Below, in pieces: positions 1-36,708 of a stretch of DNA of 38,552 nucleotides. Under the pieces are notes generated by a model, which saw nothing but the letters and a program-made list of their open reading frames with translations, did not search any database and was not told the DNA's origin. This DNA comes from Bacteroidota bacterium. Its GTDB lineage: Bacteria > Bacteroidota > Bacteroidia > Chitinophagales > JADIYW01. Numbering within the stretch: the first letter of the stretch is position 1; each line of letters begins with the position of its first letter. The stretch is from the NCBI GenBank assembly GCA_028288625.1, contig JAQBNI010000047.1:1-38552 (forward strand), written 5' to 3'. Position numbers and translations under genes: made by a program.

Positions 1-808
1 TTTTTTGGCTAATGCACATGCAAAAGAATGTCTAAATCGATGGAGATGGAATTTTATTCCCGTTAGTTTTTCAAGGCGCATAACCCAATATTTTAAGCCG
101 TGTTCGGTCAATGGCATATCTCGACGACCGTTTACCCACATTGTAGGACATTTAAATCCCTGCTTCTTTCTTTGATCGAAGTATTCTTTTATATGATATC
201 TCAATGTTGGATGCATAGGCAGGATGCGTGTTCTTCTGGATTTTGAAGTCTCCGACCGAACTGTCAACTCATTTTTTATTAAGTCTATATCGGAAACTTG
301 CAAATGAAGTAATTCATTTTTTCTCAACCCACAGTAAACTAAAGTATGAAACAATGCTACGTCTCTTTTAAACAAAAGAGCATTCTCAGGATGAAGGGTA
401 ATTGCCGCAAGGATTCTATGAAGTTTATCTTCATCTAAAGCTCGAGAATCTACATAGTCTACTTTAGGGGGTTTAAGAGTTGAGAGAGGGTTTAGTGCAA
501 TGATATTTTTACCTTGTAACCATTTAAAAAAACTTCTAAGTTTGCTCCAGTAAGTTCCTACGGTGGAATCTTTAACGCCAACTATTATTTTATCCTTTCC
601 CACCTTGCGCGGGCGGGTTTGAATTCTTCTAAAAAATTCAATCATGAGATCATCCAACAGGAATTTAGGGTCGGATATTTCGGGCATTAATTTTTGGAAT
701 GTACTAAACACCTCTCGATATCCACGGAGGGTTTCAGATCGCAATCTACGAGTAAACTCACATTCGCGAATGTAGTCTTGGAATAATGTGGGGAGGTCTT
801 TTTGCATA
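1..808 (-). CDS. Tyrosine recombinase/integrase, C-terminus cut by window edge
   Basis: Site-specific tyrosine recombinase that probably integrates or excises a mobile element. It reads from the ATG at 808 to the window edge, 269 residues, with no stop. Residues 1-110 look like the helical core-binding domain. The catalytic domain shows the first Arg in CGLRKNE (R162), a beta-hairpin Lys in TSKSRR (K189) and the H-x-x-R-H box (H256, R259, H260). The nucleophilic Tyr must lie beyond the edge. A TAA at about 870 closes the frame upstream, so the start is at 808 or a nearby GTG. The gene lies 75 bases past the 3' end of a tRNA-Arg gene, the usual position of an integrase next to its attachment site. 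This suggests that the element extends to the left, outside the window. Family certain; element type unknown. Confidence 0.92.
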
Positions 809-883
809 TACAAGGCATGGGGAATGTCCTTGTTGAGAGTATCATACACGTTGAGGTAAATTCCAGTATAAAGTTATTGCATG

Positions 884-1456: not shown

Positions 1457-1942
1457 TTACTGTTCGATAGTGATCGTCTTTGTTTCGCAATCATTCAAAA
1501 TAAAGTTTCCAGATTCAAAGCCGGTTAGCCCATCAAAAGAAGATTGAGGGTATTCATTAAACTTAGTATCATCATATAATTCATAACTCGCTTTCCATTT
1601 ATACTGACAATTCATTAGATCGTATCGTTGTCCCCATACGGTATATAGCCTATCTATCTGTTTGGGTGTATGGGCTTTTATTTTTGTATGAGTAAGAGTA
1701 CCGCCTGTATAATCACCGAAGCAATAAAAGTAAATATCTTGACTGGTGTTATTTTGAATTAAAACACTTGCAGTGCGAGTTGTCTTGCAGGGGTCCTGAC
1801 TATCTTCTGAATTTGCATATCGCCATGTGTAGTTATTAATATTTAATATAACCTTCTTCCCTGCAGAGGTAGTTGCAAATATTTCCTGAGCATAAGAAAA
1901 TCGAGCTACGACGATTAAACTTATTAATATTAAGTGTTTCAT
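1457..1942 (-). CDS. Secreted protein of unknown function (DUF3157-like start)
   Basis: A 161-residue exported protein. The frame is open further upstream, but the ATG at 1942 is preferred because it begins a clear signal peptide: Lys at 3, a hydrophobic stretch, then a signal-peptidase site near FSYAQ. The mature N-terminus (ATTSAGKKVILNINNYTWRY) has the shape seen in DUF3157-like secreted proteins, where a short strand ends in a T-W-x-Y motif. This is a weak resemblance. Mature cysteines could form disulfides. It is the last gene of the minus-strand cluster that starts with the RES protein, 55 bases after the preceding gene. Nothing shows whether it belongs functionally to the cluster or only follows it. 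Confidence 0.7.
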   Translation of the reverse strand: MKHLILISLIVVARFSYAQEIFATTSAGKKVILNINNYTWRYANSEDSQDPCKTTRTASVLIQNNTSQDIYFYCFGDYTGGTLTHTKIKAHTPKQIDRLYTVWGQRYDLMNCQYKWKASYELYDDTKFNEYPQSSFDGLTGFESGNFILNDCETKTITIEQ

Positions 1943-1997
1943 AGTTGGTGTTTTCTCTAAGATACTTATAAAACAATAGCAAATAAATTTAAGACCT

Positions 1998-2606
1998 CTA
2001 AAATGCATTTCCTGAATCGTTTGCTATCTTATCAATCGATTTAATTTCAATGTTATTGACCTTTACAGAGTTTAAGTCGGGATTTTTATAAATAAACTTT
2101 AATGTATCTAATAATTTGGCTTTAACTTCTGGTACTTTATTATCCAAATAATAAACAGTATTTACTAGGTTGGGATTGTTTTCATTATTTTCCTCAGATA
2201 TAACTTTATACAGCTCGTGCTTCTTTAGTTCTAATTCAATTTCTTTTATTTGATTGTCAAGATGAGTATTTTTAAAATCTTGGTACTTACTTGCTCCGCT
2301 AACTAATAAATAACAAATAGCAATAGGAATTCCCAGTTTCTTAGGAATGCCTATAACAATATCATTTTCGGCATCTGAAGTAACTTCAGGCATCCATCCT
2401 TCGGTTAATGCGAATTTTACGGAATTACCGGTATTAATGTTCACGATATCCAGAGATGGCTTAGCTTCATTACCATTACCAAATCGGTTATAAAAGTCTT
2501 CTGTTATTCGATCAGATATAAAGCTTAAGTTGTGAAGTAAAAGAGCTAAATCCTTTGCTTTTAATTTGTCATACGATATGTAAATTTCCAGATTCTCGCT
2601 ATTCAT
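1998..2606 (-). CDS. Hypothetical protein with one membrane segment
   Basis: This 202-residue protein was not recognised. The N-terminal 75 residues look like a small alpha/beta domain with a G-N-S-V-K-F strand near residues 60-65. A hydrophobic stretch around residues 90-106 (LGIPIAICYLLVSGA) could be a membrane helix or a buried helix. After it comes a charged helical region (about 110-140, rich in Glu and Lys) and a C-terminal alpha/beta tail. It starts 10 bases after the end of the small beta-rich gene upstream, so the two are almost certainly co-transcribed. The position inside a tight operon suggests a part in a multi-component, possibly membrane-associated complex. That is inference. 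Confidence 0.72.
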   Translation of the reverse strand: MNSENLEIYISYDKLKAKDLALLLHNLSFISDRITEDFYNRFGNGNEAKPSLDIVNINTGNSVKFALTEGWMPEVTSDAENDIVIGIPKKLGIPIAICYLLVSGASKYQDFKNTHLDNQIKEIELELKKHELYKVISEENNENNPNLVNTVYYLDNKVPEVKAKLLDTLKFIYKNPDLNSVKVNNIEIKSIDKIANDSGNAF

Positions 2607-2616
2607 AATTATCTTT

Positions 2617-2913
2617 TTATGGTTTCATCAAATCCCAAAGTTGATCTTGATCCTCAAACTGATTTTTAATTTTAAATGGTGTTATATTATATAATCCAGT
2701 TGGACTAGAAAGCTTCTGATTAATACACAACACTTCGATCTCTACCTTTATTATGCTTTTTGCAGGTATAGTAATCTTGTAATCCTTTAATGAAGCAACA
2801 TTTTGTTTTCCAGTTCCTATCGTTTTGTTTTCAAATATTTGCCCCTTAGGAATAGTTACTCGATATTCTTTATCGGTATTGTTTTTGAGTGATATTTCTG
2901 TTGTCCATGCCAT
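2617..2913 (-). CDS. Small beta-rich protein of unknown function
   Basis: A 98-residue protein, predicted mostly beta-strand. Its pattern is a strand of type SLKNNT, then IPKGQIFE, a second IPAKS turn, a strand ending in a cysteine (EIEVLCIN), and a C-terminal TPF motif. This looks like a compact beta-sandwich domain, and no signal peptide is visible. Its ATG overlaps the last base of the upstream stop codon (2913), which indicates translational coupling. A stand-alone domain this small in an overlapping operon is more likely a binding or adaptor subunit than an enzyme. No catalytic residues were identified. Confidence 0.7.
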   Translation of the reverse strand: MAWTTEISLKNNTDKEYRVTIPKGQIFENKTIGTGKQNVASLKDYKITIPAKSIIKVEIEVLCINQKLSSPTGLYNITPFKIKNQFEDQDQLWDLMKP

Positions 2914-3809
2914 TAGTCCATTATTTTTATACTTAAAATTGATATGTCATCTGTAAGAGCAACATTAATCAATGAATCATTTTCCTTAATCTCAGTAAAC
3001 TTAAGATCTTTAATTTGGCGCAGTTTTATTTTTGAATCATAAGTTTCTAATTTCCCAAACTCTAAATTGGTTTCAAATAACGCAATATAGCCTCCTATAT
3101 TTTTTTTTGAGTAATCTGGTATTGAATAAAATCGTTGGGCTTCAAACTCATAATCGTCAATGGTAGAATAGATATCTTTATTGCTATTCTCGTATGCGTC
3201 TAATTCGCCAAATTGATTTTGGGAATAATTTTCTCTGACCTTCTGCCTAATCTGAGGCAATCGAAGTGCTATAGGATCATCTATATTGTTTTCTTCTAAA
3301 ATTCTTTCTACTTCCAAATTTCTTTCATATAGTATTTTATACAAATAAAGTGGATTGCGTAAAGTTCTTTCAAAACTGTTTTGATCCTGGCTTAATTCAA
3401 ACAAAAGGTCAACAAGAGATTTTAATTTGTCTTGATTGACATAATAACTATACGAATGTCTATCGAATAAATAACCAATAATGTTTGTAATATTAATTAT
3501 AGCAAATCCCATCTCTCTTTTTATCTTCTTGCTTGTCAGCAAAAAGATGCCAATATCTATTAAGCATTGGGTATTAGTCAATGCCTGATCATCAAGTACG
3601 CTCTCATTGTTGATGCTGCTTGGATTTGAATAGTATAAAAAATCAAACGATAACTTACATTCTATTACTTCTTCTATTTGGTTTCTCATTCGAGAATTCT
3701 GAATGTCATTTGAGTTGTTAATAATAACTTCTAGTTCAGAACTATTTTCAATAATTCTTTCTAAAATGATCTTAGCCAATGCTACGTTATCTTTCTGCAT
3801 TTTATTCAT
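2913..3809 (-). CDS. Hypothetical protein, helical N-terminus and beta-rich C-terminus
   Basis: A 298-residue protein with no recognised family. The first roughly 200 residues look alpha-helical, with alternating charged and aliphatic residues, for example ALAKIILERIIENSSELEVI. The last 65 residues read like beta strands around a GGYIALFE stretch and end in DISILSIKIMD. No membrane helix or signal peptide is apparent. It overlaps the preceding HEPN-like gene by 8 bases and the following gene by 1 base, so the three are coupled. It could be a sensor or scaffold protein for the cluster, but there is no direct evidence for that. Confidence 0.7.
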   Translation of the reverse strand: MNKMQKDNVALAKIILERIIENSSELEVIINNSNDIQNSRMRNQIEEVIECKLSFDFLYYSNPSSINNESVLDDQALTNTQCLIDIGIFLLTSKKIKREMGFAIINITNIIGYLFDRHSYSYYVNQDKLKSLVDLLFELSQDQNSFERTLRNPLYLYKILYERNLEVERILEENNIDDPIALRLPQIRQKVRENYSQNQFGELDAYENSNKDIYSTIDDYEFEAQRFYSIPDYSKKNIGGYIALFETNLEFGKLETYDSKIKLRQIKDLKFTEIKENDSLINVALTDDISILSIKIMD

Positions 3810-4584
3810 TCCTTGAAACTGTTATTTCTAAATGCATCTTTTCAAAATCAATAATTAAATCTGCTAATACATTATTTAGAAACTCTTGAAACTCTAAATA
3901 ATTTTTCATTATTCCCAGAATAATCTTCATATAGATAGCACATTGTATCTCAACGGTATTTTCTCTCGTGTTGGATTCATTAATGAGTGTAATAAACTTT
4001 AGTCTTTCTTCTTTAGAAAGATTGTTTAAGAAGCCAAAGTCTAATTTCAATTCAAAGTCGTTAATATGAACTCCCTGATGGATAATATTGTTTCTTAAAT
4101 CATATACCCAATTAAATGCTGTAAAATAAAACCCAACGAAATCTTCTTTATATTTGTTATTTAGAATTCCTTCTTTGGTTAAGTATTTAAAGAATACTTT
4201 AGCTATCTCACGTATCTTAAAAAATTCTCCGAAAAAAGCTTGCAATAAAAACTCACTCCTAATTACAGGATTTCCACTTAGTGAATTTTTATCCTTACGA
4301 AGTTCTAATAGGTCACTTAATATTATATTGATCGCTTCTATTACTTTGTTTAAGTCCATTACCCATAAAAAGAAATTTGCTCTAATTTTACCCGGAAAAC
4401 TATTGTTGAATAATTCAACTAATTCTTCTTCGGAAAACTTTCTTTCAATAGCCTTGCTTTTTTGAGCAACTTCTTTCGCAAAATCCAAAAATCCAGACAA
4501 GAGCTGACTAGGAGGTTGTAATATTTGTATATGAGCTACAGTTTCCACGTCTTTAAATGTTGAATTTACTTCGGGCAATGACAC
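3802..4584 (-). CDS. HEPN-like protein with R-x4-H motif
   Basis: A 260-residue, predominantly helical protein. Residues 164-169 are RNNIIH, followed by Gln-Gly. This fits the R-x4-6-H signature of HEPN domains, many of which are ribonucleases in toxin-antitoxin and abortive-infection systems. The surrounding helices (about 105-135 and 145-165) fit the up-down bundle that precedes that motif in HEPN folds. The call rests on this motif and helical context only, and some HEPN-like proteins are non-catalytic. The gene starts inside the 3' end of the two-TM protein gene (19-base overlap) and overlaps the next gene by 8 bases, so it is central to the coupled cluster. If active, it would be a candidate RNA-cleaving effector alongside the RES protein. 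Confidence 0.62.
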   Translation of the reverse strand: MSLPEVNSTFKDVETVAHIQILQPPSQLLSGFLDFAKEVAQKSKAIERKFSEEELVELFNNSFPGKIRANFFLWVMDLNKVIEAINIILSDLLELRKDKNSLSGNPVIRSEFLLQAFFGEFFKIREIAKVFFKYLTKEGILNNKYKEDFVGFYFTAFNWVYDLRNNIIHQGVHINDFELKLDFGFLNNLSKEERLKFITLINESNTRENTVEIQCAIYMKIILGIMKNYLEFQEFLNNVLADLIIDFEKMHLEITVSRNE

Positions 4585-4862
4585 TTCTGCGAATGGTTAC
4601 TGTAAATATTATTTACATTCTGATTTACTATATTACCTCCTAGTTGAAATAGAAATCCTAAAACAATAAGAGTTAATGCTACATATGAAAGCCTATCATA
4701 CAGTTTTGCTTTCTTTGTCTCTTCAGGATCTGATTGCTCGAGTATTATACCAATACTTCCGTCTCTGCTGATTTGCTCTGGTAAGCCGAATTTAAACAGC
4801 ATTAATACGCCAACAATATCAAAACTTAGCCCTATGATGTTTAGTATTTGTGTTGCACCCAT
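4566..4862 (-). CDS. Small membrane protein with two transmembrane helices
   Basis: A 98-residue protein with hydrophobic segments at about 6-27 (ILNIIGLSFDIVGVLMLFKF) and 61-82 (LSYVALTLIVLGFLFQLG). A polar loop rich in Asp, Glu and Lys lies between them, and a short polar tail follows. Small two-TM proteins of the G-L-x-x-D-I-x-G type are common and usually uncharacterised. It lies 55 bases after the RES gene and overlaps the HEPN-like gene by 19 bases. In a defence setting it could be a membrane-acting or membrane-anchoring component. It could equally be an unrelated small membrane protein. Function unknown. Confidence 0.68.
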   Translation of the reverse strand: MGATQILNIIGLSFDIVGVLMLFKFGLPEQISRDGSIGIILEQSDPEETKKAKLYDRLSYVALTLIVLGFLFQLGGNIVNQNVNNIYSNHSQKCHCPK

Positions 4863-4917
4863 AAGTTTCCTATTTTCTTAGCACCAAACCTAAATTTAGT
4901 AAAAATTGATCGTGAAT

Positions 4918-5883
4918 CTATGTTTGCAGAACTTCTGGAACCTCATCTTGACTAATAAATGCAGCGAAATCTTCTTTAAAAGCTCGTGTGTAATCTCCTT
5001 CTTTTGCATTGCGCCACAAAATCGTGTTATTTTCTACATAACCATATTGACTTATTGAGATTTTAAATACTCCATTATTACTATCGTAATCTTTCAGGGT
5101 TACTATGTAGAATCTCAATACTTGCATACAATTATCAACGAAATTTGGCTTGATTGCCATATTAATAGTCTGCCTTTGAGATTGAGTGCTTGGGTACATG
5201 AGAATATCTGTTCCTAAGTTATGGTTTGCATAGAGTCTCCTGTGCGCTATACTTGCTGACAATGTGTAATTCTGATCATTAATGAATTCACTATCTACAT
5301 ACTTTAAGAACTCTATTAATGCTAACCTTTTATCTTCTGATAATTTGTTTTCAAACGGCTCTTGTATTCTTCCTTGTAGGGCTTGTGGTATAATTGCAAA
5401 ACTATTATTCGGATGCAATGAGCTGTTTAAAAAGCTTTCAAAAATTAGATCGTTATCAGAGTCTATTATCTTCCATACCGAAATACAGAACTGTTTGTCT
5501 CTCCAATTTGTTTCTCTTGCTACTTCAACGAGTGCAGTAATAGGATTATTCGAACAATAAAAAACAGGATGATGAGGGAAATTACAACGTCCAAATTTAG
5601 TGAGATAAGGCGGAGGGTATGAATGTTCAGTAAATAATTCTTTATTGCTTATCGTTCCTAACTCACGAACTCTAAATATTTTAAAGGGAAATTGATGAGG
5701 TTTCAGTATGTTTAAGAAGTTTGGGAAGATTCCAATCTCTGATGTAATCTGATCAGTTATTTTTTTTGCAAAATCTTCTATGTTTTCACTGCCGTCAAAA
5801 ACAGGCCAACCATTTGCTTTAAACTTTTTAATAGCAGTTTTAATTTCTAGTAAATCAGGATAATTCTGAAAATCAGTTGACAT
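4918..5883 (-). CDS. RES-domain protein (predicted NAD+-consuming)
   Basis: A 321-residue protein with a RES domain, named for conserved Arg, Glu and Ser. Visible family features are FRVRE (R71/R73), the run RCNFPHHPVFYCS (99-111) followed by the conserved Glu in ALVEVARE (E120), Ser residues in TLSASIAHRR (S209/S211), and ILMYPSTQSQ (227-236). Characterised RES toxins (RES-Xre and MbcTA-type systems) degrade or transfer ADP-ribose from NAD+. Here no Xre-type antitoxin lies next to it. Instead a two-TM gene follows, 55 bases downstream, and then the overlapping cluster. The protein is longer than typical RES toxins (about 150-230 residues), with about 60 extra N-terminal and about 70 extra C-terminal residues. 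Family call confident; role as an effector is inferred. Confidence 0.82.
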   Translation of the reverse strand: MSTDFQNYPDLLEIKTAIKKFKANGWPVFDGSENIEDFAKKITDQITSEIGIFPNFLNILKPHQFPFKIFRVRELGTISNKELFTEHSYPPPYLTKFGRCNFPHHPVFYCSNNPITALVEVARETNWRDKQFCISVWKIIDSDNDLIFESFLNSSLHPNNSFAIIPQALQGRIQEPFENKLSEDKRLALIEFLKYVDSEFINDQNYTLSASIAHRRLYANHNLGTDILMYPSTQSQRQTINMAIKPNFVDNCMQVLRFYIVTLKDYDSNNGVFKISISQYGYVENNTILWRNAKEGDYTRAFKEDFAAFISQDEVPEVLQT

Positions 5884-5908: not shown

Positions 5909-5937
5909 TAAAGATGTTTTATAGGAATATAATGCAA
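5909..5937 (-). promoter_or_regulatory. Weak candidate promoter for the RES cluster
   Basis: On the minus strand, CATCTTTA (5909-5916) resembles the Bacteroidota -7 box TAnnTTTG with two mismatches. TTG at 5935-5937 could be the -33 element, with an 18-base spacer. It lies about 25 bases upstream of the RES start codon. This supports the RES gene as first gene of its own transcript, but the match is imperfect. Confidence 0.33.
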
Positions 5938-5986
5938 GCTACTGCTTTTTGACTTTGTGTTTATAAAAACGATTAAAGATCATGGC

Positions 5987-7711
5987 TCATTTTAATTTTA
6001 ACTCTGTACTATAAGTTTTTAATATCGGAGGTAATTTCATTTTTCCGTCTTTACCAAAATAATCTTTTATAAAATACGAAAAAGGAATTGTCTTTGAGAA
6101 GAATATATTTTCATAAGCTTTTATGGAGAACTTATTATTATTAAGATATTTTTGAGTCTTCATTTTCCAATATAAGTCGATAAGAGTATGTAATGGAATA
6201 TCTTCACGTAACCCAACCTGATAATAAATCAGAGAATCAATATTGATGATAGTTATAGGTCTAATGTTATCCGTCAAAAACCCTTCATCTTTCAACTTTT
6301 TTAATTCCACCTGAAACCAGGAATTAATTAATTCATTAAAACCAGCAACATTATATTGATGGTCATGGACGAGAATAATTGGATAAATATTAATATTCCT
6401 ACTATTGTATTTTGTATCAAACTTAAATTCTTTCTTTAGAACTTTCTTGATCACATTTATTAATTGCAATACAGCTTTCGGCTTACCATCATCTTTTTTA
6501 TACAGTGTCTTGCCAAATGCTTTATTATAAACATTAAAATCATAAGTTATCTTATCTTCTTTTGGAATTATGAAATCCTTTGACTCAAACAATAAGAAAT
6601 CTTTTCCACTTCTCATATAGTAGTCTGCGGCACCGGAATTTCCTAAAAGAGTTGCATGCTTACCCGGCATATGAACACGCTTATTAGGGTAGATCTCACT
6701 AACTATTTTATACAAAAGTTCATGCTCTGAAAATTCCTCCCCGATATACGTTTTTAATTGCTTTATTTTTTTCCCTTCAGGTAAATCTCGGAAGGTAAAA
6801 TATATTCCTTTAAAAATTTTCTCTACAACGAATAGTCTAAAGATTAACTGATAAACCCCTTTGCTTATTTTATAAAATGGCATGGAACGCAACGAAAGAA
6901 AATCCTCTTTAATTAATTTCTCACCGTTTTTAAGTGTGAACTTTTCTATAAACTCGCAAGCCTTATCAAAATCCTCACCTTGTTCAATTTGGATATTCAT
7001 AAACCCATTCGGATTTTTTAAAGAATCCAAAGCAAATGGCAAATATCGTTTAAGGTATTCTTCCCATGTACTACAATTATAGTAATCTAGAAATTCTTTA
7101 AGGAGTGCCTTAAAACGGGAATCATTTTCAATAAACCTGAAAAAGTATACCGCCTTGTACATTTGGGAAATTAATATTTCTTTGATATCATAGTTTTCCT
7201 TATCATTAAAAGGATAGGTTGAACAAAATATCATCATAGGTGCCCTAATCGTATCATCTAAATGATCTGTGGATGTAAAAGCTACTTCTTGATTCCGGGT
7301 AAGTTCAGAATGGAGAGCTAAGAACGCTTTAAAAAAACTTATTTCAACTTGAGAATTGGTTTGCGTTTCTTTTTCTTCAGCCCATTCAAATACTATCTGG
7401 AAAAGCTCTAAACCGCTTTGTGCACTCGTAAATGTTACAGTTTTTTCTTCATTCTTCTCCATATTTTTGGCGACATCATATACATGCTGTGCTATAGCTT
7501 CATTTTCGGGTCCAAATACCATTTTAATAAAGTCTTCTGCCTTCCTTGACTTTCCAGTTGCATTAAACGAAAGAAATGAAGTTGCAATAGACAGTAAATC
7601 TTTTTTATTACTACCGCTTAAATATTCTAATGGTGATTTCATTGGTTCATTTGGAAATATCTTATTGAACTCAATTAATTGTTCTGCTGAATATTTTGTC
7701 TTGCGCTGCAT
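5987..7711 (-). CDS. PD-(D/E)XK-type nuclease candidate
   Basis: A 574-residue protein whose C-terminal half shows the restriction-endonuclease-like signature. Glu 331 lies in EHELLYKIV. Asp 363 lies in GAADYYMRSGKD and is followed by hydrophobic DFLLF and then E376-S-K378 in FESKD. The spacing D-x12-E-x-K is normal for PD-(D/E)XK nucleases. The N-terminal 300 residues are helical and unrecognised, and may sense or recognise a target. No methylase, helicase or ATPase motif was seen, so it is not a standard restriction enzyme. The gene follows the upstream HEPN-like gene by 53 bases and probably shares its promoter at about 8395. It lies 103 bases before the RES gene. A role in antiphage defence is inferred from nuclease motif plus neighbourhood. 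Confidence 0.66.
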   Translation of the reverse strand: MQRKTKYSAEQLIEFNKIFPNEPMKSPLEYLSGSNKKDLLSIATSFLSFNATGKSRKAEDFIKMVFGPENEAIAQHVYDVAKNMEKNEEKTVTFTSAQSGLELFQIVFEWAEEKETQTNSQVEISFFKAFLALHSELTRNQEVAFTSTDHLDDTIRAPMMIFCSTYPFNDKENYDIKEILISQMYKAVYFFRFIENDSRFKALLKEFLDYYNCSTWEEYLKRYLPFALDSLKNPNGFMNIQIEQGEDFDKACEFIEKFTLKNGEKLIKEDFLSLRSMPFYKISKGVYQLIFRLFVVEKIFKGIYFTFRDLPEGKKIKQLKTYIGEEFSEHELLYKIVSEIYPNKRVHMPGKHATLLGNSGAADYYMRSGKDFLLFESKDFIIPKEDKITYDFNVYNKAFGKTLYKKDDGKPKAVLQLINVIKKVLKKEFKFDTKYNSRNINIYPIILVHDHQYNVAGFNELINSWFQVELKKLKDEGFLTDNIRPITIINIDSLIYYQVGLREDIPLHTLIDLYWKMKTQKYLNNNKFSIKAYENIFFSKTIPFSYFIKDYFGKDGKMKLPPILKTYSTELKLK

Positions 7712-7764: not shown

Positions 7765-8373
7765 TTAATTCTGTTTATTTTCTAATCTTGGCAATTTGCC
7801 ATTTCTCCTAAACTTTTCTAAAAGATCATTAATTCTTATTACTTCAAATGCTATTGGCTTTATAAAAATCTGTTTGTCTAGTATCTTAAAAATCCAGTCA
7901 TTTATAAAATATGCCCTGAAATGCTTGTCTACTTCTTTTGATGAATTGATATTATACCCAACATACGTTGTGTATATATTGCCCGATATCGGCGCGTTCA
8001 AATAAGAATCCATTTTCTCATCAAAATGCTCTATGAAGTTTCTAATCATTTTTAATTCTTTTAATGCATTGTTTTCTTTGATATCAAAAGCATCCCGCAA
8101 TAGCTCTGCTCGCAGGCTATGGATTGGTTTGTTTGAAATAGACCAAAAGTATCGTGATAATGAAGCAGATCTAGTTATTATATTTTGTACACAATCTATA
8201 ATTACCGGTATATTGTTTGCGTTTAATGATGTCATTTCTTCAATATAATGTTTGAGTATAATCATGTCAGCTTTAACCGCGCGAGTTATAGTCAACATGC
8301 TTTCAATATAAAATACTTCGTAGGGGTACCATATTTTCCAATCATTAATGGTGTTGTTTGATTTATCATTCAT
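7765..8373 (-). CDS. HEPN-like helical protein with R-x4-H motif
   Basis: A 202-residue helical protein. Residues 111-116 are RNFIEH, followed by FDEKMD, in the context LKMIRNFIEHFDE. This R-x4-H arrangement after a long helix is typical of small HEPN-like proteins, although the E-H-F-D-E form is also found in family members with no known activity. Nothing resembles the second HEPN-like protein at 3802-4584 beyond that motif, so the two are not recent duplicates. It is the first gene of a two-gene unit with the PD-(D/E)XK candidate (53-base gap) and has a strong-looking promoter just upstream. It could be a toxin or regulator paired with the nuclease, but partner roles cannot be told from sequence. 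Confidence 0.6.
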   Translation of the reverse strand: MNDKSNNTINDWKIWYPYEVFYIESMLTITRAVKADMIILKHYIEEMTSLNANNIPVIIDCVQNIITRSASLSRYFWSISNKPIHSLRAELLRDAFDIKENNALKELKMIRNFIEHFDEKMDSYLNAPISGNIYTTYVGYNINSSKEVDKHFRAYFINDWIFKILDKQIFIKPIAFEVIRINDLLEKFRRNGKLPRLENKQN

Positions 8374-8643: not shown

Positions 8644-8666
8644 TTAAAAAAACCGCCGTAGCGGTT
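8644..8666 (-). terminator. Intrinsic terminator overlapping the RadC stop codon
   Basis: Read on the minus strand, AACCGC-TACG-GCGGTT (8651-8666) is a 6-bp GC-rich hairpin followed by a run of T. The TAA stop of the radC-type gene (8665-8667) lies in the 5' arm, so the hairpin begins inside the coding end. Confidence 0.75.
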
Positions 8667-9170
8667 ATAACAGGTTGTTGTCACGGTAAGAATAAAAGTT
8701 ATCGGCAGAGATAATCAGGTGGTCTATGAAATCTATTTCATGAAACCGCAACGCTTCGTAAAACTTCCGTGTGAGAAGATTGTCACTCTCACTTGGTTGT
8801 AGATTACCACTGGGATGATTATGGCTGAGGAATACACCACTAGCCAAAACACTAATGAGAAAATGAAGCATAATTCTTATATCAGCAACCGTCCCATGAA
8901 CGCCTCCTTCTGACATTTCATAATTCCCAACAGCCGTGAATTTCTATTCAATGCCATTATATAAAAGAACTCTTTAACCATAATCTGATCCAAATCATAT
9001 TTTGAAAGTAAACACTCATACGCTTGTTGTGTGGTAATAATCCTTTGCAAGTTTATTGGCTTAACTCCTGTGGATTTGCATACGATTTTGAAATCGAGAT
9101 ATCGCTCAATATGAATGACCTTTTCAGCCTTAATATTAATTGTTAGACTGCTTTCTTTTAACTGACCCAT
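8665..9170 (-). pseudogene. RadC-family JAB-domain protein, frameshifted
   Basis: A short RadC-type protein (JAB/MPN domain without the helix-hairpin-helix part), common on Bacteroidota mobile elements. The first segment (from 9170) reads well through ALNRNSRLLG and then leaves frame near 8931, reaching a stop at 8877. The second frame resumes with YEMSEGGVHGTVADI and contains the complete JAMM motif HNHPSGNLQPSESD (H-x-H, seven residues, S-x-x-D). One missing base between LLG and YEMSEGG explains the break. Ribosomal frameshifting or sequencing error are possible, but no clear slippery heptamer is present. The family's metal-site residues are all intact, which suggests a recent lesion. It is divergent from the ATPase gene at 9303. 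Confidence 0.85.
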
Positions 9171-9302: not shown

Positions 9303-10460
9303 ATGAATAATCCCGATGTAACATATTTCGCCAAAACCAACTTCCGTAATGCCGGAGTAGCTTTTGGTATTAAGCAAGCAGATCGTTTATTGCATATGTA
9401 TTTTGTCGGACAAACTGGTGTAGGTAAAACCACAATGATGAAAACCATGATTCTACAAGACATTGCTGCTGGTCGCGGCGTATGTCTTATTGAACCACAC
9501 GGAGATTTGGTTCTATCACTGATTGATTCAATATCTGAAACAGATAAAAACAGGCTTATTTATTTTGATGCTACTAATTTCAATATCTCTTATGGGTATA
9601 ATCCGATTCGTAGGGTATCAATAGAAAAGCGCGCATTAGTTGCATCCGGAATTCTCGATATTCTTAAAAAGCTCTGGAATGACGCCTGGGGCGTTAAGCT
9701 CGAACATATACTGCGATATACGCTCTTGGCACTGTTAGATCAGCCTACTGCCCACTTTGGCAATATTTTGGATATGCTGTTAGACAAAACGTATCGAAAT
9801 AATGCAAAGCGATACATTGTAAGTGAAAGTGTAAAAGATTTTTGGGATAAAGAGTTTCCAAAATACATGCCCTATGATCTTATGCCGATCTATAACAAGG
9901 TCGGTGGGTTTTTAGCATATCCAATTGTCAGAAAGATTCTGATTGAAAATAATGAAACCATTTCGTTACGTGCCGCGATGGATAATGGACAGATATTATT
10001 GGTGAATGTTGCTAAAGGTCATATTGGTTCTGATGTGTCTCATATTCTTGGGGCATTATTAATTTCTTCTCTTACTTCTGCCGCTTTTTCCCGAGTAGAA
10101 ATTCATGAAGATGAACGCATACCATTTTTCATTTACTTGGATGAATTTCATAACTACACGACACTTTCATTGATTAATATGTTTTCTGAACTTCGTAAAT
10201 TTAAGATTGGGCTTATTGTAGCCCATCAGTATTTGCACCAATTAGATACTGAACTACAACACGCGATTATAGGAAATGTGGGAACGAAAATTGTTTTTAG
10301 AGTTGGCTATCACGATGCAGTATTATGGGCACGGGAAATGAAACCTACATTTATTGATATAGATTTTATGCATCTTCCTAACAGGTATATGTATCTTACC
10401 TTGATGATAGATGGTGCGCCAAGTATTCCCTTTAGCGCAGTTACATTGAATATGAATTAA
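9303..10460 (+). CDS. HerA/TraD-like DNA-translocating ATPase
   Basis: A 385-residue ATPase of the type IV coupling protein / HerA superfamily. Walker A is GQTGVGKTT (36-44), Walker B is FFIYLDEF (275-282, D280-E281), and the sensor-like segment GLIVAHQYL lies at 303-311. Further family signatures are IEPHGDLV (63-70), YNPI (99-102), LLVNVAKG (232-239) and GNVGTKIVFRVG (324-335). It starts directly with TYFAKTNFRN, which begins the ATPase module in longer relatives, and ends soon after MIDGAPSIPFSA. The larger N-terminal and C-terminal parts of full coupling proteins are therefore missing. There is no relaxase or other transfer gene nearby, so it is probably mobile-element cargo, a mobilisation remnant, or a HerA-like defence ATPase. 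Family certain, role not. Confidence 0.85.
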   Translation: MNNPDVTYFAKTNFRNAGVAFGIKQADRLLHMYFVGQTGVGKTTMMKTMILQDIAAGRGVCLIEPHGDLVLSLIDSISETDKNRLIYFDATNFNISYGYNPIRRVSIEKRALVASGILDILKKLWNDAWGVKLEHILRYTLLALLDQPTAHFGNILDMLLDKTYRNNAKRYIVSESVKDFWDKEFPKYMPYDLMPIYNKVGGFLAYPIVRKILIENNETISLRAAMDNGQILLVNVAKGHIGSDVSHILGALLISSLTSAAFSRVEIHEDERIPFFIYLDEFHNYTTLSLINMFSELRKFKIGLIVAHQYLHQLDTELQHAIIGNVGTKIVFRVGYHDAVLWAREMKPTFIDIDFMHLPNRYMYLTLMIDGAPSIPFSAVTLNMN

Positions 10461-10608: not shown

Positions 10609-10700
10609 AACGCTGACAAATAATGCAATTAGTTGTCACTTTCTTTCTTATTCCTTTGCAGCTATTCTTCCAACAATTAGTTCATTTAAAAACGAATTGT

Positions 10701-11636
10701 ATGGGAAAAAATAATTTAATTGAGGAGGTAACCTGCAAATTGTTGCTCCTGCTTGACAAAGTTACTAATGGCGATATTGAAACATGGTTGCCGCTCTCCG
10801 GACTTGCGTATAATCCTCATTCCGAACACGTTTACAGTAGCCTTAACCAGTTATTGCTCTCATTGGAATTGTACGAAAAGAATTATAGCTATAATAATTG
10901 GCTTACGTTCAAACAAATTAAAAAAGAAGGTGGATCGGTTGTAAAAGATGCAAGGTCGGTAATGGTGACGTTTACAGACACTGCCTATACCGATGCAGAT
11001 GGAAAATCTATGAGCGCGGAAGCGGCAAAATTAGCCCTGCTAGAGGCGAAAACCTCGGATTCAAGCATTTCCACTTATTTGGAAATTGGCATCCTTACAA
11101 GGCGATTTCTAAAGTTTTATCCTGTGTTCAATGTTGCACAGACAGAAGGCCTACCGGATGTACTCATCAAACCGCAAAGCCAAGGATTGACGGAAATTGA
11201 AAAACATAGTTTAGCTGATGAAATCATAAATGATACTGGTGCTAATATTGTGCATGTTGCAGGTAATTCAGCGCATTTTAATGGATTTCTCTATAAGATT
11301 CAAATGCCTATGCTGCAACAATTTTCTTGCAAGGAAAATTACTATGCGACACTGTTTCATGAGCTCATTCATTGGGCGGGTCATCCTAACCGTTTACATT
11401 GGGATTTCAAAGGAGATGCCGAAAACTTATATGCATTTGAAGAATTAGTTGCAGAACTCGGCAGTGCATTTCTTTGTGGAGAGGTTGGAATACGCACACC
11501 ACTGAAATCAAACGCAGCGTACATAAAGTCCTGGCTCAGGGCGTTACAAAATGATCACATGTATTTACTCAAAGCGGTATCGTACGCAGATCGTGCTACG
11601 CAATATATTCTTAAGCGTCAACGCATCACTGTTTAG
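10701..11636 (+). CDS. ArdC-type antirestriction protein with zincin domain
   Basis: A 311-residue protein of the ArdC family, which pairs an ssDNA-binding N-terminal domain with a metallopeptidase-like C-terminal domain and is carried by conjugative elements to protect incoming DNA. N-terminal signatures are NPHSEHVYSSLN (about 38-49) and WLTFKQIKKEGG (about 67-78). The C-terminal zinc site is HELIHWAG (220-227) followed by the distal Glu helix AFEELVAELG (245-254). The frame opens at 10623, but the extra 26 residues are unlike the family, so the ATG at 10701 is preferred. The transcript ends in a terminator that overlaps the stop. Lying after the HerA/TraD-like gene, it supports a mobile-element origin for this stretch. 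Confidence 0.88.
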   Translation: MGKNNLIEEVTCKLLLLLDKVTNGDIETWLPLSGLAYNPHSEHVYSSLNQLLLSLELYEKNYSYNNWLTFKQIKKEGGSVVKDARSVMVTFTDTAYTDADGKSMSAEAAKLALLEAKTSDSSISTYLEIGILTRRFLKFYPVFNVAQTEGLPDVLIKPQSQGLTEIEKHSLADEIINDTGANIVHVAGNSAHFNGFLYKIQMPMLQQFSCKENYYATLFHELIHWAGHPNRLHWDFKGDAENLYAFEELVAELGSAFLCGEVGIRTPLKSNAAYIKSWLRALQNDHMYLLKAVSYADRATQYILKRQRITV

Positions 11637-12722: not shown

Positions 12723-12734
12723 TTGCTTTTCAAG

Positions 12735-12808
12735 CGCTCCCTCCTGGGCTCGAACCAGGGACCTACTGATTAACAGTCAGTTGCTCTAACCTGCTGAGCT
12801 AAGGAAGC
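12735..12808 (-). tRNA. tRNA-Asn (anticodon GTT)
   Basis: The minus strand gives acceptor stem GCTTCCT/AGGGAGC with one G-T pair, TA at 8-9, D-arm GCTC...GAGC, anticodon arm ACTGA-CTGTTAA-TCAGT (anticodon GTT), T-arm CCTGG-TTCGAGC-CCAGG and discriminator G as expected for tRNA-Asn. CCA is not encoded. A promoter and a decayed tRNA copy lie upstream, and a terminator lies downstream. It marks the boundary between accessory DNA and ordinary chromosome. Confidence 0.95.
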
Positions 12809-12994: not shown

Positions 12995-13822
12995 TTACAA
13001 ATCTTTTCCACTGTCTCTTTCCTTCACAGTTTCCTGAAACCCGATCTCCTCGCACCGGCTTTTAAATGCAACTCCTTCAGGTGTATGCCGCGCCATCCCA
13101 TCGAAAAACGTCGCCATCATCTGGGTGGTTTCCAATCCCATATTGTTGTAAGCTGAATTGATCGCCAGCTTCTGCATCATCAACTGGTTCTTCGGGATGC
13201 CCGCCATGCGCTGCGCCAGCCGCTCCACTTCTTCATCCAGTTGTGATGCCGGCACCGACTTATAGATCAATCCCATTCTTTCGGCTTCCCTGCCATCGAC
13301 AAGGTCGCCGGTCAGCAGCATGCGTTTGGCTTTTTCTGCACCTAAGCGGAACACCCACATCATCGTAGTCGGACAACCCCAAACCCTCGCAGGAGGATAG
13401 CCGATCTTGGCTTCTTCCGCCATCAGCACAATGTCAGCACACAGCGCAATATCGCTTCCCCCCGCAACAGCATACCCATGCACTTTACAAATGACAGGCT
13501 TATAGCTGCGCTATAAGCTCATGAAATGGTCAGTGCACGATCGCATAAACTTGTAATCGATCATAGGATCCCATGGCATATCCTGGCTGCCCAATACAGG
13601 ACGCGGTTTTTCTGCAAACTCTTTAAGGTCATAGCCGCTGCAAAACGCTTTCCCTGATCCTGACAACACAATTACATGTATCTCGTCATCATCATTTGCC
13701 ATCGCCACTTTCTCGCTCAATTGTTTCGGCAATTCTTCGCTGATGGCGTTCAACTGTTCCGGTCGGTTCAGGATAATGCGGGCTATGCGCCCTTCCTTTC
13801 TATAGAGAACAAGGTCTTCCAT
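12995..13822 (-). pseudogene. Enoyl-CoA hydratase/isomerase (crotonase), amber codon in frame
   Basis: A crotonase-family gene of 275 codons, acting on acyl-CoA esters in lipid or aromatic acid breakdown. From the ATG at 13822 it reads MEDLVLYRKEGRIARI, RPEQLNAISEEL and KAFCSGYDLKEF, the first oxyanion-hole region. A TAG at 13511-13513 interrupts it, then the same frame continues with RSYKPVICK, HGYAVAGGSDIALCAD (second oxyanion-hole segment) and a normal C-terminus. Only one codon is wrong; relatives have Trp (TGG) there, as in MSLWRSYKP. The lesion lies in a perfect palindrome, CTTATAGC-GCA-GCTATAAG. It may be a recent nonsense mutation, an assembly or sequencing error, or rarely suppressed. 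Substrate cannot be told. No operon partners. Confidence 0.88.
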
Positions 13823-32857: not shown

Positions 32858-33787
32858 ATGAACTCATCCATTGATGCTATACATATACACTTCAACAAGG
32901 AAAGTCTTCTGTTACTGAATATTTGTTTAGGTTATTTGATGTTCGGCGTAGCGCTCGAATTAAATAAGCGTGATTTTTTACAGTTGCTTCGTCATCCGCG
33001 CAAAGCATTCGCGGGCGTTTTATCGCAATACCTCGTATTTCCATCGATCACATTTTTATTAATAAAGATATTGCACCCACACCCCAGTGTTGCTTTGGGA
33101 ATGATACTGGTTTCTGCTTGCCCGAGTGGAAATATTTCAAATTTTATTACACATACGGCAAAAGGAAACACGGCACTGTCCGTTAGCTTAACTGCATTAT
33201 CAACTATTCTGTCGCCCGTTTTTACTCCGCTGATCTTTTCCATATTAGGAAACCTGGATAAAGGAATCGGAGACCTGATGCGCGCAATTCATATCTCGTT
33301 CTACGATATACTGACGTCGTTATTCATATTACTGCTGTTGCCTTTGTTACTTGGCATTCTCATCAATTATTATTTTCCAAAGTTCACAGAGAGCAGTAAA
33401 AAGTTTTTTAAAATATCTTCGCTGCTTATCTTCTTCTTATTTATTTTAGGGGCTTTGATCAAGAACAGGGATATATTCAGCAATTACATTTACCTGGTGA
33501 TCGGAATTGTTTTTATACAAGATCTTCTCGGTTTCAGCAGCGGTTATTTATTAGCTAAATTATTTCGTTTGGAAGAAAGAGATTGCAGGAGCATTTCTAT
33601 TGAAACCGGTATTCATAATTCAGGGTTAGGATTAATTCTCGCTTTTACTTTTTTTAAAGGATTAGGCGGAATGGTGTTGATACTTGCCTGGTGGGGGATA
33701 TGGCATTTGATCGCCGGAATTTCACTCGCATATTACTGGAATAAAAAATCTCCACAAAATATTATGCATGCGCCAATGCAGTATTAA
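32858..33787 (+). CDS. Bile acid:sodium symporter family (BASS/SBF) transporter
   Basis: A 309-residue polytopic inner-membrane carrier with about nine to ten hydrophobic helices. The family's sodium-site signatures are visible: SACPSGNISNFITHTAKGN (mid-first half) and ETGIHNSGLGLIL (second half, E-x-G-x-x-N-x-G). BASS proteins couple sodium entry to uptake of organic anions such as 2-oxo acids or pantothenate; the substrate here is unknown. The ATG at 32858 is preferred over the one at 32831, which would overlap the oxygenase gene and add a hydrophobic tail of nine residues. Its 3' end overlaps the convergent 470-residue membrane protein gene by 26 bases. Confidence 0.88.
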   Translation: MNSSIDAIHIHFNKESLLLLNICLGYLMFGVALELNKRDFLQLLRHPRKAFAGVLSQYLVFPSITFLLIKILHPHPSVALGMILVSACPSGNISNFITHTAKGNTALSVSLTALSTILSPVFTPLIFSILGNLDKGIGDLMRAIHISFYDILTSLFILLLLPLLLGILINYYFPKFTESSKKFFKISSLLIFFLFILGALIKNRDIFSNYIYLVIGIVFIQDLLGFSSGYLLAKLFRLEERDCRSISIETGIHNSGLGLILAFTFFKGLGGMVLILAWWGIWHLIAGISLAYYWNKKSPQNIMHAPMQY

Positions 33788-35174
33788 TGGCAACAGGCTT
33801 TGCAGGAAGAACAACAGGCTTTATTTCCATTTCTTTTTCTTTATCTGCCAGGATAATTAAAGCGATAAAATAAAAGGGCATAAATGGGATTTTATATCGC
33901 ACCAGCGAGCCAAAGTTATAACTGGTAAAGCCTACAGAAAAAGCAAACAGCAAGGAAAAGATTAGGCAGAACTGGACTTCAGGATTAGTAATAATCAGCT
34001 TCAAAAACCGAATAAATCCCGCTTTATATAATAACCGGATCGTAAAAAATAAAGAAACAAGTCCTTCAAGCGCGGCAGGTATTAGTATTGGTTTTTTCGC
34101 TTCCCATAAATAGGGTCTGAAGATGGCAACATTTACTGCCTTTGGAAAAACCTTTAACATGCCAAGCGGTGTGAAATCAACATTACCCAATGAATACCCC
34201 GAACCGCGGGAATTTTGTGAAGATAAAAATAGCCAGTTCTGTGTGTCCTTTGCAGTCCGCACAAGATTATCAAACGCATATCTTTCTGACACTGCCGCTA
34301 TTTTAATAAATATCATTACACCTACAAGCATGGATATCACAAATAATACCGGGTTCATAAATGATTTGACGAGTGTATTTTGTATATTATTTTTGTACCG
34401 GAATATTATCCAGATAGAATAAGCAGGCATAAAGGAGAGTATGATGTATACTTTTACAATGATCAAAACTGAAAAGCATATTCCGATCAATATCAGTCTT
34501 GAAATAATTTTTGTTTGTTGAAAAAAAAGTTTGTAGATGTGATAGGTCAGCGCACCTAAAGCACCAAGGCAAATAGGATCTTTTAAAATGCCAGTGCCCC
34601 AGAAGCATACGGAAGGAAGAAAGAGGCAAGCTATTGCAAGTTGTTTTTCGAGTTGCGGATATATTTCAGAAAACAATAAAAATATTTTCCAGCAACCGTA
34701 AAAACAAATGATCGTAAAAACAAAAGAAATGAGGATATAAGTGTTGAGCAAGGGATAACTCAGGTAAAGTGCAAGCTTAATAACAATACTTGCACTATGG
34801 TTTAAATAAAATTCTGCACCGCTTCCGAGATACCTTATTGCATAGAAGGTATTGTGGTGCTGCTTAAATGCAAGATCAAGGAAGGCGGAAATATCTTCAT
34901 GGAAAACGCCCCGGATTCTCTGAACATATGTAAAATAGGTATGCGAGTCACCGCCTCCGTCATAATAATATTGATATACAAGCGCCATGACGATAGCAGA
35001 TGCAAAACGTACCATCAATGCCATAACAAAATACTTTTTATACACAGGGTTCTTTTTACCCTCGGCATATTTTTTCGCAATAAAGTAAGCAGCTAAAATG
35101 AAAAGCGGTGCCAGCAACAAATCATTGAGGAATAAAAACCGGGTTTGATCAGCATGTGTGAACCAACTTTCCAT
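33762..35174 (-). CDS. Polytopic membrane protein, GT-C/Wzy-like, duplicate 1
   Basis: A 470-residue integral membrane protein with about ten to eleven hydrophobic helices. The first extracytoplasmic loop contains YYYDGGGDSHTYF (69-81), an acidic motif in the position where GT-C glycosyltransferases and some polymerases hold catalytic Asp. FWGTGILKDP (about 187-196) and GFTSYNFGSLVRYKIPFMPF near the C-terminus resemble membrane polysaccharide enzymes. A GT-C or oligosaccharide-polymerase role is inference. More than 80 percent of residues match the neighbouring 470-residue copy without gaps; only the last 25 residues (PVVLPAKPVAIN) differ strongly. It overlaps the transporter gene by 26 bases at the 3' end. 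Confidence 0.8.
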   Translation of the reverse strand: MESWFTHADQTRFLFLNDLLLAPLFILAAYFIAKKYAEGKKNPVYKKYFVMALMVRFASAIVMALVYQYYYDGGGDSHTYFTYVQRIRGVFHEDISAFLDLAFKQHHNTFYAIRYLGSGAEFYLNHSASIVIKLALYLSYPLLNTYILISFVFTIICFYGCWKIFLLFSEIYPQLEKQLAIACLFLPSVCFWGTGILKDPICLGALGALTYHIYKLFFQQTKIISRLILIGICFSVLIIVKVYIILSFMPAYSIWIIFRYKNNIQNTLVKSFMNPVLFVISMLVGVMIFIKIAAVSERYAFDNLVRTAKDTQNWLFLSSQNSRGSGYSLGNVDFTPLGMLKVFPKAVNVAIFRPYLWEAKKPILIPAALEGLVSLFFTIRLLYKAGFIRFLKLIITNPEVQFCLIFSLLFAFSVGFTSYNFGSLVRYKIPFMPFYFIALIILADKEKEMEIKPVVLPAKPVAINTALAHA

Positions 35175-35295
35175 TAAATAAAGAAATTGAGATAATGAAG
35201 ATAATCATTATCGCTCGCTTTTTTGTTTAAAACAAGGGAATTCACATCGTTGATATAATAGAAAAAATGATTTTAATACAAAAGGTGGTGTATCA

Positions 35296-36708
35296 TTATG
35301 CAGGCACTGGCACCTTGGACATATCTCTTGGCAGCACAGGCTGAACTGCAGGCTTTAATTCAGTTTGTTTTTCTTTATCTGCGAGAATAAAAAGAGCGAT
35401 GTAATAAAAAGGCATGAATGGAATTTTATATCGCACCAGCGAACCAAAATTATAACTGGTGAATCCAATAGAGAAAGCAAATAATAATGAAAAGATCAGG
35501 CAAAATTGTACTTCGGGATTCGTAAGGATCAGTTTTGTAAATCGTATAAATCCTGCTTTATACAATAAACGGATCGTGAAAAATAATGACGCCAGTCCTT
35601 CCAATGCGGCAGGAATTAATATAGGCTTTTTCGCTTCCCATAAATATGGTCTGAATAACGCAACATTTACAGCTTTGGGAAAAATTTTGAGCAAGCCGAG
35701 CGGCGAATAATCAATATCACCTAGTGAATAGGAAGATCCTCCGGATTTTTTTGAAGAGAGGAATAACCAGTTCTGCGTGTCCTTCGCGGTCCTTACAAGA
35801 TTATCAAATGCATATCTTTCTGAAACCTGTGCTATCTTAATAAAAACCAATACACCTACAAGTAACGACACCACAAATAATATCGGGTTCATTAAAGTTT
35901 TTATCAAACTGTTTTGGATATTATTTTTATAGCGGAAAATTATCCAGAAAGAATATGCCGGCATAAAGGAAAGGATGATATATACTTTTACAACTACCAG
36001 GACCGACATACATATAGAGATCACGATGAGCCGCGATATGATCTTTGTCCGGAAAAAAAATAATTTATAAATATGATAAGTAAGTGCGCCTAGTGCGCCA
36101 AGGCAAATCGGATCCTTTAAAATTCCGGTTCCCCAAAAACATACTGAAGGAAGAAACAGGCAGGCAAGCGCGAACTGCTTTTCAAGATGCGGATATATTT
36201 CATAAAACAATAAAAATATTTTCCAGCATCCATAAAAACAAATGATTGTAAACACAAACGAAATCAGCATATAAGTATTCAGTAGCGGGTAGCTCAGGTA
36301 AAGTGCAAGCTTAATAATAATACTTGCGCTCTGGTTAAAATAAAATTCTGCTCCGCTCCCCAGGTACCTGACTGTGGTAAAAGTATTGTGATGTTGTTTA
36401 AACGCAAGGTCTAAGAATGCAGAAGTATCTTCAAAAAAAACACCGCGGATTCTCTGTACATAAGTAAAATAAGTGTGTGAATCTCCGCCGCCGTCATAAT
36501 AATATTGATATACCAATGCCATTATAATAGCCGAAGCAAAGCGAAGCATCAGCGCCATAATAAAATACTTTTTATACACCGGGTTTTTTTTGCCGCGGAT
36601 ATATTTTTTTGCAAGAAAGTAAGCTAATAAAATAAAAAGCGGCGCCAGCAACAAATCGTTGAGGAAAAGAAATTGACTTTCATCGTAATGCGTAAACCAC
36701 GTGACCAT
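35296..36708 (-). CDS. Polytopic membrane protein, GT-C/Wzy-like, duplicate 2
   Basis: The second copy of the tandem pair, also 470 residues, in the same direction with 121 bases between. The acidic loop YYYDGGGDSHTYF, FWGTGILKDP and the SYNFGSLVRYKIP region are identical to copy 1. Differences are mostly conservative (Ile/Val/Leu) and spread through the helices, with a diverged Pro-rich tail. The equal length and gap-free match show a fairly recent duplication with both copies kept under selection. The copies may act on different acceptors or simply raise dosage. An 8-bp inverted repeat GATAATGA/TCATTATC (35192-35213) lies between them. It is divergent from the 528-residue membrane protein, 40 bases apart. 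Confidence 0.82.
   Translation of the reverse strand: MVTWFTHYDESQFLFLNDLLLAPLFILLAYFLAKKYIRGKKNPVYKKYFIMALMLRFASAIIMALVYQYYYDGGGDSHTYFTYVQRIRGVFFEDTSAFLDLAFKQHHNTFTTVRYLGSGAEFYFNQSASIIIKLALYLSYPLLNTYMLISFVFTIICFYGCWKIFLLFYEIYPHLEKQFALACLFLPSVCFWGTGILKDPICLGALGALTYHIYKLFFFRTKIISRLIVISICMSVLVVVKVYIILSFMPAYSFWIIFRYKNNIQNSLIKTLMNPILFVVSLLVGVLVFIKIAQVSERYAFDNLVRTAKDTQNWLFLSSKKSGGSSYSLGDIDYSPLGLLKIFPKAVNVALFRPYLWEAKKPILIPAALEGLASLFFTIRLLYKAGFIRFTKLILTNPEVQFCLIFSLLFAFSIGFTSYNFGSLVRYKIPFMPFYYIALFILADKEKQTELKPAVQPVLPRDMSKVPVPA

Follow-up and report, generated by a model that had tools for sequence, protein, structure and literature searches.

A RES-fold enzyme among genes probably carried by a decayed mobile element next to tRNA-Asn in a Bacteroidota bacterium

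We have analyzed a run of minus-strand genes in a Bacteroidota bacterium (GCA_028288625.1) and find that one of them, g7 (4918 to 5883), encodes an enlarged RES-fold enzyme of the ADP-ribosyltransferase superfamily. The window, that is, the whole stretch of contig JAQBNI010000047.1 that was analyzed, comprises 38,552 nucleotides, and all coordinates count from its first base. We propose, with a probability of roughly 0.6, that the region from 1457 to 5883 was carried as cargo by a mobile element, since decayed, next to a tRNA-Asn gene; that its genes, mostly of the conflict type, were acquired separately and do not form one seven-gene system; and that g7 is a RES effector that consumes nicotinamide adenine dinucleotide (NAD+). 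A preliminary description had put forward the seven genes of this region (g1 to g7) as a candidate defense system; the analysis supports the presence of a RES-fold enzyme in a mobile setting with conflict-type genes but does not support a single seven-gene system, as relatives of the RES gene, of g6, and of the upstream gene g8 occur separately. Articles are cited by their PMC numbers.

The RES-fold protein g7

That g7 (321 residues) is an enlarged RES-domain protein, as had been suggested, was borne out by a profile search, in which it scored 34.2 bits against the Pfam RES family PF08808 (cutoff, 23.2 bits). An AlphaFold2 model built from 8 sequences had a mean predicted local distance difference test score (pLDDT) of 81.6 and a predicted template modeling score (pTM) of 0.83. 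When this model was searched with Foldseek, NatT, VPA0770, ParT, and RES-Xre structures ranked first (best expectation [E] value, 7e-5); with VIA-align 2, the Z scores were 10.9 for MbcT, 10.8 for NatT, and 10.1 for ParT, all eight RES entries falling between 9.3 and 10.9 and the next entry, diphtheria toxin, reaching 5.8. Thirty enlarged RES proteins, gathered by similarity to g7, were aligned; all 30 match PF08808 (E up to 0.1), residues R71, R99, Y109, E120, Y230, and N241 (g7 numbering) are invariant among them, and S232 is nearly so (at least 90% of the sequences). The RES domain is named after arginine, glutamate, and serine (PMC2701414), and the conserved R, E, and S residues of the g7 family fit these namesakes.

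The RES fold and the conserved R/E/S residues are common to g7 and the RES-Xre modules MbcTA, NatRT, and ParTS; however, g7 is approximately twice the usual RES size of about 160 residues (PMC2701414), its model contains extra N-terminal and central helices (residues 11 to 50 and 161 to 218), and it lacks a neighbor of the helix-turn-helix (HTH) type. The last point agrees with the earlier statement that no Xre-type antitoxin is present, since the genes flanking g7, g6 and g8, had no HTH match in profile searches. RES proteins with a helical N-terminal HEPN/RES-NTD1 domain have been described (PMC3710099); like g7, they fuse RES to extra, mostly helical sequence, but unlike them, g7 has no match to the HEPN/RES-NTD1 profile PF18870 (E up to 0.1), which is matched by 1 of the 30 g7 relatives. 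This relative (L087, 3930 to 5093) is a RES protein of 387 residues with Cys residues before its PF18870 domain; PMC3710099 mentions a zinc-ribbon form, which this protein may represent.

To judge from its sequence, g7 probably consumes NAD+. By homology to MbcT and to NatT, the NAD+ chemistry of which is given in PMC11535050, g7 would most likely split NAD+ by phosphorolysis, yielding ADP-ribose-1''-phosphate. Once released, for example during phage infection, g7 would most likely stop growth and so act in abortive infection.

Occurrence of the genes in other genomes

A search of 395 other genomes of the order turned up g7 relatives in 11, and a search of 344 others of the class turned them up in 20. 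Five named records of a contig collection also contained relatives, two of these being contigs already matched; none was found on a plasmid or in a viral contig. The class search gave 24 rows from outside the bacterium's own genome, from which 18 places were fetched; six rows were left out as weak or fragmentary (G762, G906 twice, G656 twice, and G796). Altogether, 32 distinct RES loci were read, namely, 11, a further three (L031, L032, and L035), and these 18, with one truncated copy (L026, 119 residues) included. The scans of contigs and viral contigs used a few short peptide patterns as seeds and detect close relatives only.

Homologues of g1 to g6, g8, or g9 were found at none of the 32 other enlarged-RES loci (E limits of 1, 10, and 0.1). 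The same separation was seen from the side of two other genes. A concatenated query detected relatives of g6 (4566 to 4862), which encodes a 98-residue protein from a scattered family of small membrane proteins, in 6 of 256 other class genomes, and 12 plasmid records contain weak matches (best E value, 3e-5), all of which cover less than 80% of the query and one of which adjoins a terminase gene. Nine g6 loci were fetched, and g6 was re-detected as an open reading frame (ORF) at five of them; at none of the nine was there a RES profile match or any other window protein. Likewise, relatives of g8 (5987 to 7711) turned up in 4 of 148 other order genomes, and no other window protein accompanied them at the four loci read. 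Relatives of g6, g7, and g8 thus each occur apart from one another. Conservation of the gene order, to which the preliminary description had tied its proposal, was accordingly seen at no RES, g6, or g8 locus; the comparison does not apply to g1 to g5. As one conserved unit, the seven genes were rejected where the idea is testable, at the loci of g6, g7, and g8 relatives.

These loci also bear on the idea that g7 and g6 work as a pair, with g7 as a toxin that consumes NAD+ and g6 as its small membrane partner. The two genes are neighbors, 55 bases apart; however, RES at none of the nine g6 loci and g6 at none of the 32 RES loci render such a pairing very improbable.

No relatives of g1 to g5, by which linkage among these genes might be judged, were detected. 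Matches to g5, g4, and g9 were confined to the bacterium's own genome among 247, 158, and 109 genomes, respectively. Among 248 genomes, g2 matched its own genome and two others (E values of 4e-6 and 3e-5); the targets in the latter, iron-sulfur proteins of 1074 and 1069 residues with Fer4 domains, were treated as chance matches. No relative of g3 was found with the concatenated query, its sole genome search; at most four first-look candidates per genome were scored with this query, which makes it a weak test for g5, g4, and g3. For g1, which was in no genome search, the negatives rest on profile searches, with no family match above the cutoff, and on plasmid and viral-contig searches. Plasmid searches with g1 to g5, phage searches with g5 and g4, and viral-contig scans with g1 to g6, within the reach of the latter noted above, gave no relatives.

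The gene run and its genomic setting

The ORF list agrees with the preliminary description in placing seven minus-strand genes between 1457 and 5883. Together with one opposite-strand ORF, the region holds eight ORFs of at least 98 amino acids on both strands; 200 dinucleotide shuffles of the region gave 0.12 such ORFs on average and never more than 1, so the long ORFs are not due to chance. The junctions reported earlier were all reproduced on recomputation: g5 and g6 overlap by 19 bases, g4 and g5 by 8, and g3 and g4 by 1, and g2 and g3 lie 10 bases apart. An 11-base overlap of g1 and g2 is probably not real, because a signal-peptide-like start of g1 at codon 23 (base 1942) leaves 55 bases between them. 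The RES gene had been taken as the start of the cluster, which is doubtful: g8 lies 103 bases upstream of g7, and g9 lies 53 bases before g8, both on the same strand, and the run may therefore comprise nine genes, not seven. A terminator-like hairpin is present at base 8666, at the end of a RadC fragment and just before g9; promoter- and terminator-like sites showed no excess over shuffles, and the only RNA families that reached the gathering score in the window were two tRNAs.

At the downstream end, g1 (1457 to 2008; 183 residues as an ORF, with base 1942 as the likely start) encodes a small secreted-like protein with a hydrophobic peak at residue 26. The protein encoded by g2 (1998 to 2606; 202 residues) has one hydrophobic segment near residue 83 and that encoded by g6 has two hydrophobic peaks, consistent with the single membrane segment and the two transmembrane segments previously ascribed to them. 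The genes g3 (2617 to 2913) and g4 (2913 to 3809) encode proteins of 98 and 298 residues. The product of g8 (574 residues) is a candidate PD-(D/E)xK-like, nuclease-like protein: its pattern D363...E376-x-K378 is invariant in all five aligned sequences. This family of about 570 residues had no Pfam or NCBIfam match above the cutoff, no PADLOC match, and no sequence match in the PDB (E up to 1).

Two further genes are candidates for HEPN RNases, namely, g5 (3802 to 4584; 260 residues; GTG start) and g9 (7765 to 8373; 202 residues). The R-x4-H motif that had led to the description of g5 as HEPN-like is present (RNNIIH, residue 164), but a HEPN fold was not confirmed; g9 carries RNFIEH. The HEPN motif is R-x4-6-H with a polar residue, such as N, after the R (PMC3710099), and R-x4-H with N in this position is common to g5, g9, and HEPN RNases such as the Cthe_2314-like proteins (PMC3710099). 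The stricter pattern R[NDH]xxxH is confined to g5 and g9; the 25 other listed window ORFs (8625 amino acids) contain no instance of it, but they contain nine of R-x4-H without the polar residue. Unlike established HEPN RNases, both proteins remain under the Pfam cutoffs: g9 has a weak match to PF18730 (16.1 bits; cutoff, 27.1 bits), and g5 has no HEPN profile match in the Pfam search. The single-sequence model of g5 is helical but of low confidence (pLDDT, 47.6), and a fold search gave no match at an E value of up to 0.001, the model being too poor to judge by. RNase activity of g5 and g9 is plausible from these motifs, and both would then act as RNases. The set as a whole had been proposed for profile searching; g7 exceeded its Pfam cutoff, but a PADLOC search of g1 to g9 (E up to 0.001) returned no named system and one match only, a weak one of g5 to RTas1299 (residues 143 to 244; E value, 2.6e-4).

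One explanation of this layout may be a young, lineage-restricted, multi-gene defense system in which g5, as a HEPN RNase, and g7 would be the effectors, g6 and g2 the membrane parts, and g4 and g3 the sensor or adaptor. The common strand, the tight overlaps, the confinement of R[NDH]xxxH to g5 and g9, the mobile, conflict-type surroundings, and a HEPN-domain gene 9 bases after RES at one other locus (L081) favor it. We nevertheless hold it to be unlikely: RES and g6 relatives exist without the other genes, the gene order was seen at no other locus read, g5 and g4 were confined to the bacterium's own genome among those searched, and plain R-x4-H is common.

The surroundings of the run are those of a mobile element. 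A tRNA-Asn gene (12734 to 12808, minus strand) adjoins the island; with increasing distance from it follow a HEAT/LRV-repeat gene, genes for an ArdC-like antirestriction protein (10623 to 11636, plus strand; PF08401 and PF18818) and a TraG/TrwB-like coupling protein (9303 to 10460, plus strand; PF10412 and PF12696), the RadC-like fragment (8665 to 8916, minus strand; PF04002, 79.1 bits), and then the low-GC (guanine-plus-cytosine) block. The GC content of g1 to g9 is 0.29 to 0.35 per gene, compared with 0.379 for positions 12800 to 38552. A tyrosine recombinase gene (1 to 849, minus strand; PF00589) runs off the contig, and further recombinases of the same family occur elsewhere in the genome, one of them near a TraG-like gene. 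In all seven other genomes of the genus, tRNA-Asn lies 46 to 465 bp from a PfkB gene, closer than in the window, where an enoyl-CoA hydratase-like gene in two ORFs (12995 to 13822; frameshifted or split) stands between the two. At the six congener neighborhoods read, covering approximately 3 to 12 kb toward the island, the search (E up to 0.01) gave no homologue of any of g1 to g9. The natural reading is that the low-GC block is part of an integrated, decayed mobile element. An ordinary operon of the chromosome, with metabolic or surface functions, would be compatible with the secreted-like g1 and the hydrophobic segments in g2 and g6. It seems to us hardly credible, given that the set is absent from the matching place in congeners, that its GC content is low, and that conjugation-type genes have a RES enzyme, a nuclease-like gene, and R-x4-H proteins as neighbors.

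Several observations weigh against the interpretation of the region as mobile-element cargo with a RES effector. The genes from g6 to g2 are packed with overlaps or very short gaps, a compactness for which accretion has no need, and g1 to g5 give no linkage test, as no relative was found. The window contains no convincing second copy of the 3' end of tRNA-Asn or tRNA-Arg, and the ends of the element were therefore not located. The congener G346 shows a weak match to enlarged RES at another place, g7 scores far under the NCBIfam cutoff for RES-ParT toxins (15.6 against 110 bits), and a defense function is shown by no result here.

Two side observations concern the same genome. Contig C94 contains, around 5931 to 6172 (L135), a partial second tRNA-Asn 3' region (84% identity over 109 bases), and it also has related recombinases. 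In the window, two tandem membrane-type proteins of 470 residues, 85% identical over 460 residues, are encoded at 33762 to 36708 on the minus strand.

Enlarged RES genes elsewhere and their possible role in immunity

The neighborhoods of enlarged RES genes at other loci contain hints that these proteins are reusable effectors, which we regard as a lead and not as a result. At L034 (3588 to 10981), genes for a type III methylase and nuclease lead without a gap into RES, and the gene for a Piwi-domain prokaryotic Argonaute (pAgo) comes 5 bases on, so that a pAgo-RES pair is possible; L035 is collinear with L034 at 94.5% identity over all of its 3838 bases and, as a close relative, is no independent case. 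At L032, the gene of a type IIG enzyme and RES share 4 bases, and a 51-codon remnant retained at L031 matches the end of this enzyme with 55% identity over 29 residues. At L073 (1288 to 7251), an AAA-ATPase, a subtilase, a 542-residue uncharacterized protein, and RES, which is entered with an 11-base overlap, form a tight run; an AAA/subtilase pair lies nearby on the opposite strand at L080. At L081 (6205 to 8515), a trypsin-like protease gene lies 4 bases upstream of RES, on the same strand as RES and the HEPN-domain gene mentioned above, and at L023, HipA and Fic genes lie upstream.

It can be envisaged that enlarged RES proteins without Xre serve as reusable NAD+-consuming effectors of varied Bacteroidota sensors, among them a pAgo with type III restriction-modification, a type IIG enzyme, an AAA-ATPase with a subtilase, and a trypsin-like protease, and that the sensor in the present case is the undescribed overlapping set from g6 to g2; we consider this rather improbable. 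Housekeeping-looking neighbors, noted by eye at several of the 32 RES loci, weigh against the effector idea. In a scan for defense neighbors at 30 RES loci, the 116 proteins within two genes of RES matched 131 PADLOC families (E up to 1e-10) and the 129 proteins at least four genes away matched 73. We claim no enrichment of the nearest genes, because such family counts do not count distinct proteins and because the distant set also has strong matches (among the matches listed, DpdF, IetS, PDC-S02, and a type I nuclease).

Defense islands on mobile elements at tRNA genes are a further point of comparison. The present region shares with them a tRNA border, a recombinase, conjugation- and antirestriction-type genes, and toxin-type cargo; unlike them, it includes no recognized defense system among g1 to g9.

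According to PMC11535050, no RES toxin-antitoxin system has been implicated in immunity. RES is counted in PMC9503650 among the domains deployed by prokaryotic immune systems, and RES as an immune domain is therefore already in print. Two pAgo papers (PMC10620215 and PMC6299218) make no use of the term "RES domain" in their main text, and in the literature searched, parts of which were accessible, we met no description of a RES effector of pAgo or restriction-modification systems.

In conclusion, the window itself contributes a further example of a RES protein located in a mobile region. If it is true that enlarged RES proteins are immune effectors, RES chemistry would join TIR and SIR2 as a means by which bacterial immunity depletes NAD+.

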